Source: an uncultured Balneola sp. (GTDB lineage Bacteria; Bacteroidota; Rhodothermia; Balneolales; Balneolaceae). Taken from it: 64,000 nucleotides of DNA. The DNA is taken from contig CAJXQC010000002.1 in NCBI GenBank assembly GCA_913058495.1, forward strand, positions 124,001 through 188,000, read 5' to 3'. The notes below the pieces were generated by a model. The model was not told the origin of the DNA. It did no database searches and was given only the letters and a program-made list of their open reading frames with translations. Shown one piece after another: positions 56,982 through 63,900 of the stretch. The first letter of the stretch is position 1, and each line of letters begins with the position of its first letter. The translations under genes were made by a program, and so were the position numbers.

Positions 56982-57545
56982 ATGAGTGCACCAGCTAAAA
57001 AGAAAATCGAAGAGCAACCAAAGTTGCATGGCATTCTGGGCGAGTTCCGGAATCCGAAAGCTCTATATGATGTAGCTGCTTTAACAGTGAAATCAGGTTA
57101 CAATAAATTCGATACTTACAGCCCTTTTCCTATTCACGGAATTGATAAGGCAATGAACCTTAAGAAATCTAAACTGGGCTGGATCGTAATTGGTCATGGT
57201 TTACTTGGTTTCTGTGGAGCACTGAGTATGATGTATTTCATGTCAGTAATGGATTACCCGATCAATATCAGTGGAAAGCCATTTTTTAATGCACCTGCTT
57301 GGGTTCCTATTACATTTGAATTAACGGTATTGCTTTCTGCATTTGGAACTGTATTTGGAATGTTCTTCCTAAACGGACTTCCAAAATTGAATAACCCTCT
57401 TTTTAACGTTGACCGATTTAAAAAAGCTACTGACGACGGCTTCTTCATTTGTATTGAAGCTGAAGATTCTCTTTTCGAAACTGAAAAAGTGAAAGCATTG
57501 CTTAAAGAAGCCGGAGCAACACATATAGAGGAAGTATATGACTAA
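56982..57545 (+). CDS. actD: Alternative complex III subunit ActD (DUF3341 membrane protein)
   Basis: 187 residues. DUF3341 pattern with LHGILGEFRNPKALYDVA and DTYSPFPIHGIDKAMN, then two membrane helices (about residues 67-90 and 103-123, PINISGKPFFNAPAWVPITFE between them) and the DGFFICIEAED tail. It is a structural subunit. Its stop overlaps the actE start by eight bases. Confidence 0.95.
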   Translation: MSAPAKKKIEEQPKLHGILGEFRNPKALYDVAALTVKSGYNKFDTYSPFPIHGIDKAMNLKKSKLGWIVIGHGLLGFCGALSMMYFMSVMDYPINISGKPFFNAPAWVPITFELTVLLSAFGTVFGMFFLNGLPKLNNPLFNVDRFKKATDDGFFICIEAEDSLFETEKVKALLKEAGATHIEEVYD

Positions 57546-58572
57546 CAAGAATGAAATAACTTCTTTAATGACCGCTAAGAATATCCTTAAAATGGCTTGT
57601 TTAAGTGGAGCTGCTTTGGTTTTCGCTTCATGCCGGGGACAGATTTCTGAAAAACCTCCGATCCATCCTAACATGAACATGGATCAGCAACCCAGAATGG
57701 AAGCTCAGGAAGTAAACAAGTTTTTTGAAGACAACCGCTCTATGCGTCAACCTGTGGAAGGAACCATAGCTCGTGGATTGTTAAAATCTGATGTTGCCTA
57801 CTACGAAGGTACAGATGCAAACGGAGAATGGATCGCCGACATCCCTGTTGAAGTTACTACAGAATTGCTTTACAGAGGTCAAGAGCGTTACGATGTATAC
57901 TGTTCAGTTTGTCACGGTGGAACCGGTGCAGGTGATGGAATTATCATGACCGGAAATTACGGTTATGTTCCGGCTCCTACTTACCATCAAGATCGTTTAA
58001 GAGAAGCTCCGGATGGAGAAATCTATTCTGCTATCTATAATGGTGTTAGAACGATGCCTTCTTACGCAACTCAAATTAAAGTTGAAGACCGATGGGCAAT
58101 TGTAGCTTACATAAGAGCGCTTCAGGCTAGTCAAAATGTTAGCGAAGACGAGATCAACCAATATGATGTTGATGTAAACGAACTACAAAGCGAATATAAA
58201 GCTGAACAAGAGCGTTTAGCTGCTCTTGCCGAAGCTCGCAAACCTGAAAAAGAAGCTGAAGCTTCTGTTCAAATGGGTGAGCAATTAGTTGGACAATATG
58301 CATGTGGAACCTGCCATAATGAAGATGGTTCTGATGGCGGAATCGGCCCAACCTGGAAAGGATTATTTGGAAGTACAGCTCAGGGTATTGATGCAGATGG
58401 AAATACGATCTCTATTACAAAAGATGAGACGTACATACGTGAGTCCATTGTTGCTCCCGGAGCAAAAAAGACACAAGGATACGAAACAGGCGTTATGCAG
58501 CCTTACGATTACTTGTCCGACACAGAAATTGAGTCACTGGTTCTATACATAAAATCACTGAGTGATAACTAA
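57538..58572 (+). CDS. actE: Alternative complex III subunit ActE, diheme lipoprotein cytochrome with extra C-terminal cytochrome domain
   Basis: 344 residues. Lipobox FASC (Cys32). First heme site CSVCH (122-126) in the standard ActE domain, and a second CGTCH (256-260). The C-terminal domain (about residues 245-344) closely matches the cytochrome domain fused to CoxB in the same operon. Both carry GEQLV...CxTCH, the IGP-KGL stretch, YxRESIxxPGAK and MxPY. Typical ActE is monoheme, so the second module is an extension. Spacing with actF is 22 bases. It passes electrons from ActA or ActB toward the oxidase. Confidence 0.92.
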   Translation: MTNKNEITSLMTAKNILKMACLSGAALVFASCRGQISEKPPIHPNMNMDQQPRMEAQEVNKFFEDNRSMRQPVEGTIARGLLKSDVAYYEGTDANGEWIADIPVEVTTELLYRGQERYDVYCSVCHGGTGAGDGIIMTGNYGYVPAPTYHQDRLREAPDGEIYSAIYNGVRTMPSYATQIKVEDRWAIVAYIRALQASQNVSEDEINQYDVDVNELQSEYKAEQERLAALAEARKPEKEAEASVQMGEQLVGQYACGTCHNEDGSDGGIGPTWKGLFGSTAQGIDADGNTISITKDETYIRESIVAPGAKKTQGYETGVMQPYDYLSDTEIESLVLYIKSLSDN

Positions 58573-58594: not shown

Positions 58595-59815
58595 ATGAGT
58601 CATAAGCCAACTATTACAGATTCTCTCGAATTCCCGCAAAACAGCATGATACCTCGTGCTGCTTTTGGACTTGGATTTGCAGGATTGATCGCCAGTTTTA
58701 TCGGTTATTTCTTACAACCCGATCAGTTTTTCTTTTCTTATATCGTAAGCTTTACCTTTTTTGCAGGCATTTCCCTTTCAGCATTGATCACTGTGATGCT
58801 GCATCATATTACAAAAGCCAGTTGGGGAACCGTATTTAAACGCTTTTTTGAAGTATTTTCTTCCAATATCTGGGTTTGGGCTATTTTCTTTATTCCTGTT
58901 CTTTTAGGAATGCAGACTCTTTATCACTGGACAGATCCTGCACTTTTTGACAAAGCAAGTGCGGAGTTCGATAAAATAGTCTACGGTAAATCAGCTTATT
59001 TAAATCAGACTTTCTTCATCGTTCGTCAGGTTATCTACTTTGCGATATGGGGATGGTTAGGTCATAAATTATACAAAGCTTCAGTTGAGATGGATAAAAC
59101 CAGCGATTGGGGCATTACCAGCTTAATGAGAAAGATCAGTGCTCCCGGAATTCCAATATTTGCTCTTTCTGTTGCATTTGCAAGCTTCGATTGGTTGATG
59201 TCGCTTGATCCACACTGGTTCTCAACGATGTTTGGCGTGTATTTCTTTGCGATCAACTTCCAGGCTTTCTGGCCGGTAATGATCTTGTTGGTTTTCTTCC
59301 TTCAGAGACAAGGAATTTTGAAAGACACTATCAAGCAAGTACATATCTACGATCTTGGTGCATGGTTCTTTGCTTTCACTGTATTTTATGCATACATCGC
59401 TTTCAGTCAGTTCCTATTGATCTATTATGCTAACCTTCCGGAAGAAACTCTTTGGTTTTACAACAGACTGGAAGGCGGATTTGAATACATCGCTTACGGA
59501 TTATTGATATTCCGTTTTGCACTACCATTTTTACTTCTCATCAACAGAGAAGCCAAGCGCAGCCGTTTCATGTTAGGATTAGTATCCGTAATTGTTCTGG
59601 TTATGCACTTTTTAGAAATTTACTGGATCTCAATGCCGGCTAACCATGCAGGAGATGCTCATGGTCTTCATTTCAGCTGGATTGATATCGCTACCTTTTT
59701 AGGTTTAGGTGGAATGTTCTTTGGTTTGTTCTTCAACAAGTTCAAAAAAGAGAGCATGATCCCTCAAAACGATCCTAAAATGGACGAATGTTTATCAAAA
59801 TCTTATCATCATTAA
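58595..59815 (+). CDS. actF: Alternative complex III subunit ActF
   Basis: 406 residues with about ten hydrophobic helices and a hydrophilic C-terminus (NKFKKESMIPQNDPKMDE). The family features are an N-terminal AAFGLGFAGLIASFIGYFLQPDQFFFSY, central helices with FASFDWLMSLDPHWFSTMFGVYFFAINFQAF, and late helices ending WIDIATFLGLGGMFFGLFFNKF. It partners ActC as an NrfD-related membrane subunit. It sits ten bases before the next gene, so it is co-transcribed. Confidence 0.95.
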   Translation: MSHKPTITDSLEFPQNSMIPRAAFGLGFAGLIASFIGYFLQPDQFFFSYIVSFTFFAGISLSALITVMLHHITKASWGTVFKRFFEVFSSNIWVWAIFFIPVLLGMQTLYHWTDPALFDKASAEFDKIVYGKSAYLNQTFFIVRQVIYFAIWGWLGHKLYKASVEMDKTSDWGITSLMRKISAPGIPIFALSVAFASFDWLMSLDPHWFSTMFGVYFFAINFQAFWPVMILLVFFLQRQGILKDTIKQVHIYDLGAWFFAFTVFYAYIAFSQFLLIYYANLPEETLWFYNRLEGGFEYIAYGLLIFRFALPFLLLINREAKRSRFMLGLVSVIVLVMHFLEIYWISMPANHAGDAHGLHFSWIDIATFLGLGGMFFGLFFNKFKKESMIPQNDPKMDECLSKSYHH

Positions 59816-59825
59816 TTGCTGATCT

Positions 59826-60365
59826 ATGTCGACTAAGCACAGCGCAGAATTTAAAGCACAAACAGCTCTGGAAGCGATCTCACTTCCTGTAGGCGAACTG
59901 GACGCTTTCGCAAAAAAGAAAGGCGTTTCAAAAGATGAAGTTATTGAATGGGTAGCTGCTCTTAAAAAGAACTCAGCTTCTCTTTTCGCTGAAGGATCAG
60001 AGGCTCACGGTGGTCACCATCACGCATCCGGAGAAAATGTAAATCTTGAAACAGAAGATGAGCTCCTTATTGCTGCGGTTTCTCACGGAGTTAACGATGA
60101 TAACCTGAATTATAATAAGCTTTTCTTCTGGACCACTTTTGGAACCGGTCTGGTAATTGTAATTATTTACGGATTGATACAGTTTGCTCAGGCCAGCTGG
60201 TTTGATGCCCAAAACGAAGCTTCTGTAAATAGTCAGTATTCCGAAATAAAAGAATTGAAAGCTAAGGATGCGGAAACGCTGAATAGCTATGGTGTTGTTG
60301 ATCTGGAAAACGGAACATACAGAATACCAATTGATCAGGCTATTAATAAGATAGCTGAAAATTAA
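59826..60365 (+). CDS. Single-pass membrane protein with IS3 OrfA-like N-terminal helix-turn-helix
   Basis: 179 residues. The first about 57 residues (KHSAEFKAQTALEAI, then GVSKDEVIEWVAALKKNSASLF) closely resemble the transposase_8/IS3-family OrfA DNA-binding HTH. A histidine-rich linker (HGGHHH, residues 61-66) and a polar segment follow. One transmembrane helix (about 98-120) and a C-terminal extracytoplasmic tail (about 124-179) complete it. It lies ten bases after actF and five before the sco-type gene, so it is part of the operon. No transposase catalytic domain is present. It may be a small accessory subunit or assembly factor of the ACIII/oxidase that recruited an HTH. The resemblance could also be chance. 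I do not recognise a named family. Confidence 0.75.
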   Translation: MSTKHSAEFKAQTALEAISLPVGELDAFAKKKGVSKDEVIEWVAALKKNSASLFAEGSEAHGGHHHASGENVNLETEDELLIAAVSHGVNDDNLNYNKLFFWTTFGTGLVIVIIYGLIQFAQASWFDAQNEASVNSQYSEIKELKAKDAETLNSYGVVDLENGTYRIPIDQAINKIAEN

Positions 60366-60369
60366 TTTT

Positions 60370-61206
60370 ATGAGACGCTTTGCACTGTTAGCATTTATTT
60401 TGTTTGCAGTGCTTCAACTTCCATTTCGAAGTTTTGCCCAAAGTAGTAATACGGGTACTTCGCAAGCGCTGCAAGACGTAGGCATCGAGGAAAAACTCGG
60501 AGATATTATTCCTCTTGATGCAAAATTTTCCACCGTTGAAGGTGACAGCATCCGTTTAGGCGATTTACTCGAAGAAGGTAAACCTGTAATTCTGAATCCT
60601 CTTTATTATGAATGCCCGATGCTTTGTGGTTTAGTTGTTGATGGTGTAATTGATGTAGTCGATGAACTGGCCTGGAAGCCCGGAAAAGATTATCTGGTTA
60701 TATCCTTCAGTATTGACCCATTGGAAGATCACAACATGGCGAAAGAATATCGTAGTAAGTATATCAACAAACTTACTAATACAAATGCTGAAGAAGGCTG
60801 GTACTTTTTAACCGGTAAACAACCTCAGATCGACAAAGTAATTGATGCTGTAGGCTTCAAATACAACGAAGTTCAGAGAACAGGAGAATATGCGCATAGT
60901 GCAGCTATTATTATGCTGAGCCCTGATGGAAAGATCACTCGCTATCTTTACGGCATTAAATACAATGAATTTGATACACGAAATGCTTTGTTCGAATCAG
61001 CCGATGGAAAAATCGGTAGTGCTGTTGAAAAAATTCTAATGTACTGCTATCAATACGATCCTGATTCTAACAGCTATGTGCCGGTTGCCATGAATATTAT
61101 GAAGATTGGGGGCTTGGCTACTCTAATAATTCTCGGTATATTTCTCACCCTTTTTTGGGTACGGGAAAGACGTAAAAAACAATCACAAAACTTCGACTAT
61201 AACTAA
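60370..61206 (+). CDS. sco: SCO1/SenC-family copper chaperone
   Basis: 278 residues. Signal peptide (about residues 1-24). The thioredoxin-like fold has the copper motif CPMLC (Cys82, Cys86) in LYYECPMLCGLV, and the distal copper-ligand His in TGEYAHSAAIIML. A C-terminal membrane helix (about 242-265, IGGLATLIILGIFLTLFWV) anchors it. SCO delivers copper or reduces the CuA cysteines of CoxB, which it precedes. The stop TAA overlaps the coxB ATG by one base (TAATG). Confidence 0.93.
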   Translation: MRRFALLAFILFAVLQLPFRSFAQSSNTGTSQALQDVGIEEKLGDIIPLDAKFSTVEGDSIRLGDLLEEGKPVILNPLYYECPMLCGLVVDGVIDVVDELAWKPGKDYLVISFSIDPLEDHNMAKEYRSKYINKLTNTNAEEGWYFLTGKQPQIDKVIDAVGFKYNEVQRTGEYAHSAAIIMLSPDGKITRYLYGIKYNEFDTRNALFESADGKIGSAVEKILMYCYQYDPDSNSYVPVAMNIMKIGGLATLIILGIFLTLFWVRERRKKQSQNFDYN

Positions 61207-62144
61207 TGGACAGACTGTTCGAATTCATGCTTCCTGAGGCGAAATCGCCTACAGCCGACAGCACCGATGCCTTGTTTCATTTTATCAATGAAGTGAGTCT
61301 CATCTTCCTGATCGGGATCACTTTCGCTCTCATTTATTTTGCAATCAAATATCGCAGAAGATCTGAGGATGATGAAACCCCGGTTATCACTCATAACAAT
61401 ACACTCGAAATTACATGGTCCGTAGTTCCGTTACTTATCACTTTTGTGATCTTTGGATGGGGATACACCGGCTGGTTAAACCTAAAATCTGTTCCTGATA
61501 ATGCATATGAAATTCAGGTGAGCGGTTTTAAATGGGGCTGGAATGTAAAATATGACAATGGTGCTCAAACCCTTAATGAAATTCATGTTCCTGAAGGCAG
61601 ACCGGTAAAGATCGTTCTTCAATCTTCAGATGTACTACACTCTTTCTTTGTACCTGATTATCGTGTAAAGCATGATGTTGTTCCCGGACGCTATACCTAC
61701 GTTTGGTTTGAAGCTGAAGAAGTAGGTGAATCACAGGTTTTTTGTACAGAATATTGCGGAACAGGACACTCTGATATGCTTGCAAAAGTAATCGTACATA
61801 CCGAAGAAGATTTCCAAACCTGGCTTGAAAAGAATGGCGGAGGAGTTTCAGGAACGCCAGTTGAACAAGGAGAGCAATTGGTTCAGCTTCAGGGTTGTAC
61901 TACATGCCACTCTGACGACGGTTCAAGGCTGATCGGACCTTCTTTCAAAGGACTTTGGGAAAGCGAGGAAACTCTTTCAGATGGTTCTACAGTAACCGTG
62001 GATGAAAACTATCTGCGCGAATCAATTTTAAATCCCGGTGCTAAGATCGTAGAAAGCTACGATAACGTGATGACTCCTTATGAAGGAAGAATCTCTGACG
62101 AAGAAATCACCAATATCATCGAATATCTAAAAACGCTTAAGTGA
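61206..62144 (+). CDS. coxB: Cytochrome c oxidase subunit II with fused cytochrome c (caa3 type)
   Basis: 312 residues. Two N-terminal membrane helices (about 27-48 and 68-90) precede the CuA cupredoxin domain. Its ligands are His145 (LHSFFVP), Cys180, Glu182, Cys184, His188 and Met191 ([16 protein letters not shown]). The C-terminal cytochrome c module has CTTCH (231-235) and a likely axial Met in VMTPY. This is the caa3 arrangement. The module is nearly the same as the C-terminal domain of ActE in this operon. It passes electrons to CuA and on to CoxA. Confidence 0.96.
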
Positions 62145-62145
62145 T

Positions 62146-63900
62146 ATGGCAACTGCTGAAGTATCAAATAAAAAAACTCTAAAAGTTCAGCGCTTTAAAC
62201 CATCTGATAATCCTTCTAACACCTATCTGACAGATGAAAAAGGTGTTTGGGCATGGATGACAACTGTAGATCATAAGAAGATCGGGATCATGTATTTGGT
62301 TTCCGTTGCTATTTTCTTTGCAGTTGGTGGAGCATTAGCGCTGTTACTCAGAACTGAATTGCTGACGCCTGCTAAAACCTTTATTGAGGCAGACACTTAC
62401 AATCAGTTATTTACCCTGCACGGAGCCATCATGGTATTCTTCGTGTTGGTTCCTTCTATTCCTGCGGCATTAGGTAACTTTATTATGCCAATGCAACTCG
62501 GAGCAAAGGACGTAGCCTTCCCGAAACTGAACCTTGCCAGTTTTTACATCTATGTAGCCGGTGCAATTTTTACTTTTATTGCTTTAGCTCAACATGGTTT
62601 AGACACGGGTTGGACATTCTACACTCCATATAGTACAGAATCTTCCAGTAGTGTGATCTGGGTAACCATGGGGGTGTTTATACTTGGTTTCTCCTCTATC
62701 CTGACGGGAACTAACTTTATTACTACCATCCATAAAATGAGAGCTCCGGGAATTACCTGGGGAAAACTTCCTTTGAATGTTTGGGCACTGTATGCTACTT
62801 CGATCATTCAGGTATTGGCAACTCCGGTACTTGCGATCACCGTTCTTCTTTTAACAATGGAAAGATGGTTAGGTTTTGGAATCTTTGATCCAGCTCTTGG
62901 TGGTGATCCGGTTCTGTTCCAGCATTTCTTCTGGTTCTACTCCCACCCTGCTGTATACATCATGATCGTGCCGGGATTCGGAATTATTTCAGAAGTGATC
63001 TCAACTTTTTCTAAGAAAACAGTATTCGGTTACTGGGCAATTGCACTTTCTTCTTTAGCAATTGCATTCATCGGTTTCCTTGTATGGGGACACCACATGT
63101 TTACTTCAGGGCAATCTGCAGTAGCTACTACAGTTTTCTCATTCCTGACTTTCTTGGTAGGTATTCCAACTGGTATTAAGATCTTTAACTGGATCGCGAC
63201 CTTATATAAAGGCTCCATTAAAATGGATACGCCTATGATCTATGTATTTATATTCCTGTTCTTATTCTCCATTGGTGGATTTACAGGAATTATGCTTGGT
63301 GCTCTTTCAGTAGATATTCACTTGCATGATACATACTACGTAGTTGCTCACTTCCACTATGTTATGATGGGTGGAACACTGATCGCACTGCTTGCAGGAT
63401 TGCATTTCTGGTGGCCAAAAATGACCGGAAAATTGTACAATGAAAAGCTTGCTAAAATCGCTTCAGTATTCATTTTTGTTGGCTTCAACGTGACTTTCCT
63501 TCCTCAGTTTGTGATGGGAGCTCAAGGAATGCCGAGAAGATATTACAACTATGTAGATCAGTTCACCGCTTTCCACCAAACTTCAACAATTGGTTCTTAC
63601 TTGTTGGGCGTTGGATTCCTGATCATCCTTTATTACCTGATGCATTCTTTATTCAAAGGAGCAAAATCTCCGGCAAACCCTTGGGGAAGCCGTGGATTGG
63701 AATGGCAGGCAACATCACCACCTGACTTCCACAACTTTGATCACACTCCGGTAGTAATTCATGGTCCTTACGACTACCACCAACCAATGGAAGAATTCCA
63801 ATTAGGATTAGCGGTAGACACCAATGGTCATGATTCCGGAACAGCTAAAGAAGTTGTTGATAAGGAACGCGATCAATGGAAAAACTACAGTTTAGGCTAA
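62146..63900 (+). CDS. coxA: Cytochrome c oxidase subunit I (A2-type caa3)
   Basis: 584 residues with about 12 helices. Heme and copper ligands are intact: His92 (LHGAIM) and His404 for heme a, His402 for heme a3, and His267, His316 and His317 for CuB. The D-channel glutamate of A1 oxidases is replaced by the FYSHPAVYI motif (Tyr265-Ser266, Ala269), which defines the A2 subtype known from Rhodothermus and Thermus-like caa3 oxidases. The linking Tyr271 is kept. It reduces oxygen and pumps protons. Confidence 0.96.

Follow-up and report, generated by a model that had tools for sequence, protein, structure and literature searches.

The window (the whole 64,000-nucleotide stretch that was analyzed) contains a run of genes for the respiratory enzyme alternative complex III (ACIII), followed by sco and the genes of a caa3 oxidase. 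The features considered here are as follows.

56982 to 57545, forward strand: actD (Pfam ActD, E 4e-65)
57538 to 58572, forward strand: actE, whose product has a second cytochrome c domain at its C-terminus (Pfam; homologous to PDB ActE chains via R. marinus)
58595 to 59815, forward strand: actF, the upstream neighbor (ORF; conserved neighbor in ActG loci)
59826 to 60365, forward strand: actG, 179 aa, the ActG subunit of ACIII with an N-terminal OrfA-type helix-turn-helix (HTH) (ORF, actF/sco setting, ActG profile)
59835 to 59987, forward strand: residues 4 to 54 of ActG, supported as a domesticated IS3 OrfA/HTH_Tnp_1 domain (family Pfam matches, hhalign, AF2 model, match to 2rn7)
59988 to 60116, forward strand: variable linker, residues 55 to 97 (alignment; dN in the linker usually above that in the HTH)
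60117 to 60179, forward strand: single TM helix, about residues 98 to 118 (hydropathy, charge bias, AF2 helix at 96 to 154)
60279 to 60362, forward strand: C-terminal ActG signature LNSYGVVDLENGTYRIPIDQAI, residues 152 to 179, predicted to be periplasmic (invariant alignment columns; matches 8k9e_G)
60370 to 61206, forward strand: sco (SCO1/SenC), the downstream neighbor (Pfam, E 4.6e-10)
61206 to 63900, forward strand: coxB and coxA of the caa3 oxidase (ORFs; conserved downstream neighbors in ActG loci; assigned by inspection)

In the ORF list, actG starts with an ATG at 59826 and stops at 60365. It lies 10 bases 3′ of actF and 4 bases 5′ of sco, and these measured gaps bear out the tight operon packing described in the initial annotation. 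The gene is a real ORF under purifying selection, and the closest named relatives are Balneola species. A homologue was present in 84 of 92 Balneolaceae genomes; of the eight with no match or a marginal one, actF too was missing from six, and in the other two it extends to the end of the contig. We read the gene order at loci from the Balneolaceae, from further families of its class, and from R. marinus, and found actG between actF and sco in every checked ActG locus at which both flanks were seen. Conservation of this position, which the annotation had proposed as a check, thus extends across the Balneolaceae, R. marinus, and other clades of the phylum. At two loci (L093 and L094) actG lies between actF and coxB, and sco was found at neither; at another (L098) the ActG core is present without any recognized act or cox gene beside it. 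An Acidobacteriia metagenome-assembled genome (L035:2713-3225) also encodes, between its actF and sco genes, a protein resembling ActG that shares the tail motif and carries no HTH.

When the window protein was searched alone against Pfam and NCBIfam, there was no significant match, and a PDB search returned only matches to a designed repeat protein and a tag. (An NCBIfam match to DprE1, at E 0.01 and far below the cut-off of that model, occurred by chance.) The protein has one hydrophobic segment and no cysteines, hence no CXXCH motif, as expected of ActG, a subunit with a single TM helix and no redox cofactor. Its TM helix and tail signature recur in short proteins encoded at this locus across the class. 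The R. marinus locus, which we recognized by the 100% identity of its ActE to PDB 6f0k_E, has the orthologue in the same place, after actF and before sco. R. marinus ActG is an ACIII subunit with one predicted TM helix; it was detected in the purified complex and confirmed by mass fingerprinting, and has no density in the structure (PMC5928083). As a lone query, R. marinus ActG had a single PDB match, 8k9e_G (ActG in the Chloroflexus structure 8K9E). A 15-row ActG profile, from which the Chloroflexus members were left out, matched 8k9e_G at E 9.9e-5 and the window protein at 7.6e-38. Because of the shared tail signature and TM helix, the R. marinus locus, and the matches to 8k9e_G, the identification of the window protein as ActG, the known accessory, single-helix ACIII subunit, plus an extra N-terminal domain is well supported. 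The link to a respiratory complex made in the initial annotation therefore stands with ACIII as the complex, and it can be sharpened, in that the protein is ActG itself, which the annotation had missed. An actG homologue has been reported to be absent from Melioribacter (PMC3534657), and ActG has been called specific to the ACIII of C. aurantiacus (PMC9316378). Contrary to that view, the profile match to 8k9e_G suggests a broader and strongly diverged ActG family.

The predicted layout of the protein agrees with the initial annotation in its one membrane helix, but the His-rich linker described there is typical of the window's genus only, and the wider family does not conserve it; the alignment shows conservation at the end of the linker (HGVNDDNLNYNK). 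The charge bias around the TM helix is modest, with 37 sequences favoring N-in and 11 against, and N-in/C-out is the favored topology.

The extra N-terminal domain matches the HTH of IS3-type OrfA proteins. PF01527 (HTH_Tnp_1) matched 28 of the 37 HTH-bearing homologues (best E, 9.1e-8), several of them above the curated gathering cut-off, and a genome-wide PF01527 search of the Balneolaceae returned actG genes above the cut-off (up to 36.1 bits) beside genuine IS3 OrfAs. Alignment of the ActG N-domain profile to an OrfA profile with hhalign gave 98.6% and E 9e-16 over 58 columns. Against the IS3 OrfA profile the window protein scored 23.5 bits and its homologues reached 46.8 bits, whereas among 1,887 controls made by shuffling or reversal the top score was 12.2 bits. 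One Balneolaceae ActG could be paired directly with the IS3 OrfA of another Balneolaceae genome (34% over 50 residues; E 8e-9 for the pair); the window protein itself gave no useful BLAST alignment with that OrfA. Alone, it also had no reported PF01527 match in Pfam, and its OrfA signal is secure only via the family. The OrfA resemblance noticed in the initial annotation is, then, above chance, and homology of the N-terminal 54 residues of ActG to IS3-type OrfA (HTH_Tnp_1) is well supported. An NCBIfam label in 33 members pointed to IS66 TnpA as the donor; we rejected it, since the model also matches the IS3 OrfAs of the class and its own cut-off was reached in 0 of 245 genomes.

The AlphaFold2 model of the domain has three helices, at residues 7 to 18, 22 to 32, and 36 to 55, with a mean pLDDT of 77 (medium confidence). 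The best VIA-align match of this model was 2rn7, TnpE of Shigella flexneri, with Z 6.8, a value in the range that the tool calls common, and an rmsd of 3.5 over 55 residues. We take TnpE to be an IS3-type OrfA. Foldseek found no significant match for the domain model, and the full-length model was likewise uninformative. The modeled N-terminal domain is a three-helix HTH. Both computational checks named in the initial annotation, a predicted trihelical HTH and a profile match to the transposase HTH, had this outcome, the latter for the family.

We compared signatures between 25 IS3 OrfAs and the 37 HTH-bearing members of the ActG family. Fold positions are common to the two groups (F9, K10, A17, A29, V/I34, I39, W42, and F54), whereas the residues of the OrfA recognition helix are not: H35 is found in 24 of 25 OrfAs and P36 in all 25, and neither occurs in any of the 37 ActGs; N37 is found in 17 OrfAs and at most one ActG; and K43 in 23 OrfAs and no ActG. 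The HPNQ signature and the W-K-K pair are thus gone, and the basic N-terminal arm has been lost. With that arm included, the net charge is +5.3 in OrfA and −2.8 in ActG; for helix 3 alone it is +1.2 and −2.3, and helix 3 of ActG is mostly acidic or hydrophobic. The loop between helices 1 and 2 has an extra residue in at least 34 of the 37 ActGs, where all 25 OrfAs have a gap; this common one-residue insertion fits a single origin.

In 16 informative pairs the dN/dS of the HTH was 0.02 to 0.43, with the top value of 0.43 resting on five substitutions. dN was usually higher in the linker than in the HTH; the reverse held in two pairs from the window's genus. The HTH is under purifying selection, and its fold has been kept while the DNA-contact residues and the positive charge have been lost. 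Profile, profile-profile, structural, and evolutionary evidence together support the initial annotation's proposal that the N-terminal domain of ActG is a domesticated IS3 OrfA HTH. The option, also raised there, that the domain binds DNA is disfavored: with the contact residues lost and the sign of the charge changed, DNA binding is less likely, although the domain may bind DNA with a new specificity.

Among the ActGs examined, the HTH is confined to the Balneolaceae; none of those read from outside the family carries it. When presence of the HTH was placed on a tree of 69 ActF proteins, five changes were needed. This pattern is compatible with acquisition at the root of the Balneolaceae and several subsequent losses, together with, in one clade, either a regain or additional losses, and we infer a single fusion event. 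Species that lost the HTH, in several Balneolaceae lineages, keep the operon, and three ActGs (L020, L021, and L050) retain short stretches at the N-terminus resembling remnants of the domain. Eight ActGs from other clades of the class (L092 to L098 and L106) have a different, unrelated N-domain of about 100 residues. It weakly resembles fibronectin type III (best Pfam fn3 E, 0.043, in two of the eight members; titin Fn3 E, 0.19), and that label is offered as a lead. Clades outside the Balneolaceae have either no N-domain or this other one, and therefore the N-domain of ActG has been exchanged between clades.

Within the window's genus, the operon is at the median 95% identical to that of L033, but identity falls to 67% in the stretch coding for the HTH. 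The synonymous divergence of actG in L033's genome (L004) was 0.90 in the HTH versus 0.06 in the tail. The pattern suggests that recombination brought in a divergent HTH allele. The low-identity island (about 67%) lies at 59826 to 60025 in comparisons with L033 and L034, the operon being otherwise 94 to 95% identical, and coincides with the HTH of ActG. A second island of about 67% identity in an operon otherwise 94 to 95% identical, at 58276 to 58430 in comparisons with L032 and L034, coincides with the second cytochrome domain of ActE. The two islands suggest that alleles have been exchanged at both added domains. ActE of the window (344 aa, 57538 to 58572) has this second C-terminal cytochrome c domain at nt 58246 to 58569. 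Over 99 residues it shares 46% identity with the cytochrome c domain of the operon's own CoxB, and it looks like a copy from the caa3 oxidase placed onto ACIII.

Our reading of the whole, which we hold to be probable but by no means certain, is that actG carries a fused, domesticated OrfA HTH that now serves as a protein-docking module on the cytoplasmic side. The beginning of an IS3-type orfA would have been fused in frame to actG in the ancestor of the Balneolaceae. Selection would then have kept the HTH fold while the residues that contact DNA disappeared together with the positive charge. ActG would be held on ACIII by its TM helix and its conserved periplasmic tail, which has the YRIPID motif, and the HTH, facing the cytoplasm if ActG is N-in, would dock a protein, which may be the cytoplasmic face of ACIII, the neighboring caa3 oxidase, or an assembly partner. 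This reading draws on computed results (the ORF, ActG orthology, OrfA homology, fold, selection, and loss of the DNA signature), to which it adds a presumed topology, single fusion, and docking. Protein binding is the better guess than DNA binding, with docking argued from the features that have been lost. Points against docking are that the HTH is dispensable, having been lost several times in the Balneolaceae, that the N-in charge bias is modest, and that the AF2 model is of medium confidence.

The same repeated losses, sometimes with short N-terminal remnants, would be expected if the HTH were a tolerated passenger, a functionless relic of the fusion. That is unlikely given its dN/dS of 0.02 to 0.43, its conserved fold-forming residues, and an adjacent linker that usually evolves faster. 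The maintenance of the fold by selection also suits a membrane-tethered transcription regulator, in which a cytoplasmic HTH would bind DNA under the control of the periplasmic tail or the state of ACIII. Such a protein would have the same order of parts as ToxR or CadC (cytoplasmic HTH, one TM helix, periplasmic tail), but we think this rather unlikely: the members examined have lost HPNQ, W-K-K, and the basic N-terminal arm, their helix 3 consists mostly of acidic or hydrophobic residues, the remainder of the protein is an ACIII subunit, and species without the HTH keep the operon. We give little credence to the idea that ActG is an assembly factor for caa3 or for SCO copper insertion instead of a stable ACIII subunit, with the HTH binding an assembly partner. 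The adjacency of actG to sco and the missing cryo-EM density of R. marinus ActG (PMC5928083) favor this idea, but mass fingerprinting placed R. marinus ActG in the purified complex (PMC5928083), an ACIII structure includes the Chloroflexus homologue as a built chain, and the searched genomes without an ActG match had no actF or had the match at a contig end. Improbable to a greater degree is that the tethered HTH still recognizes nucleic acid or a nucleoid protein and so ties the respiratory complex to the chromosome, its own mRNA, or its gene; if true, a transposase domain would couple respiration to gene expression. That the three helices resemble the OrfA HTH by convergence only is barely credible, for although the window protein alone lacks a PF01527 match and small helical domains match many folds, the family matches exceed curated cut-offs, the hhalign alignment (E 9e-16) spans the whole domain, including its YSxEFK start and LF end, and the shuffled and reversed controls fall far below.

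Searches of open-access full texts for ACIII with transposase or HTH, and for Balneola with ACIII, found no earlier report of an ActG-HTH_Tnp_1 fusion. ActG and HTH_Tnp_1 were each already known; what is new is a form of ActG that carries a transposase-derived HTH. Part of a jumping gene appears to have become part of the respiratory chain in marine Balneolaceae, and the domain now looks unable to bind DNA. This is a traceable case in which the DNA-binding domain of a bacterial insertion sequence was built into a core energy-converting complex and lost its DNA-binding signature. Species with, without, or with a replaced N-domain offer a comparison, and the domain gives a handle on ActG, the ACIII subunit without density in the R. 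marinus structure.

Like the window protein, the ActGs of R. marinus and Chloroflexus aurantiacus (8K9E chain G) have a single TM helix and a C-terminal YRIPID/IPIDRAM motif, but they are shorter (130 and 112 aa, versus 179 aa) and have no N-terminal HTH. R. marinus ActE (209 aa) likewise lacks the second cytochrome c domain of the window's ActE. ToxR/CadC regulators share the layout of a cytoplasmic HTH, a single TM helix, and a periplasmic tail. However, they use a winged HTH (Trans_reg_C), a family absent from the Pfam matches of the window protein and from the 25 families found most often among its homologues, and the tail of ActG is that of an ACIII subunit instead. With IS3-family OrfA (PF01527) the whole three-helix domain is shared, beginning with YSxEFK and ending with LF. 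Where OrfA has a leucine zipper and a following orfB, the window protein has a linker, a TM helix, and the ActG tail, and the next gene is sco; its N-domain, without the DNA-contact signature, is acidic rather than basic and is fused to a membrane anchor.
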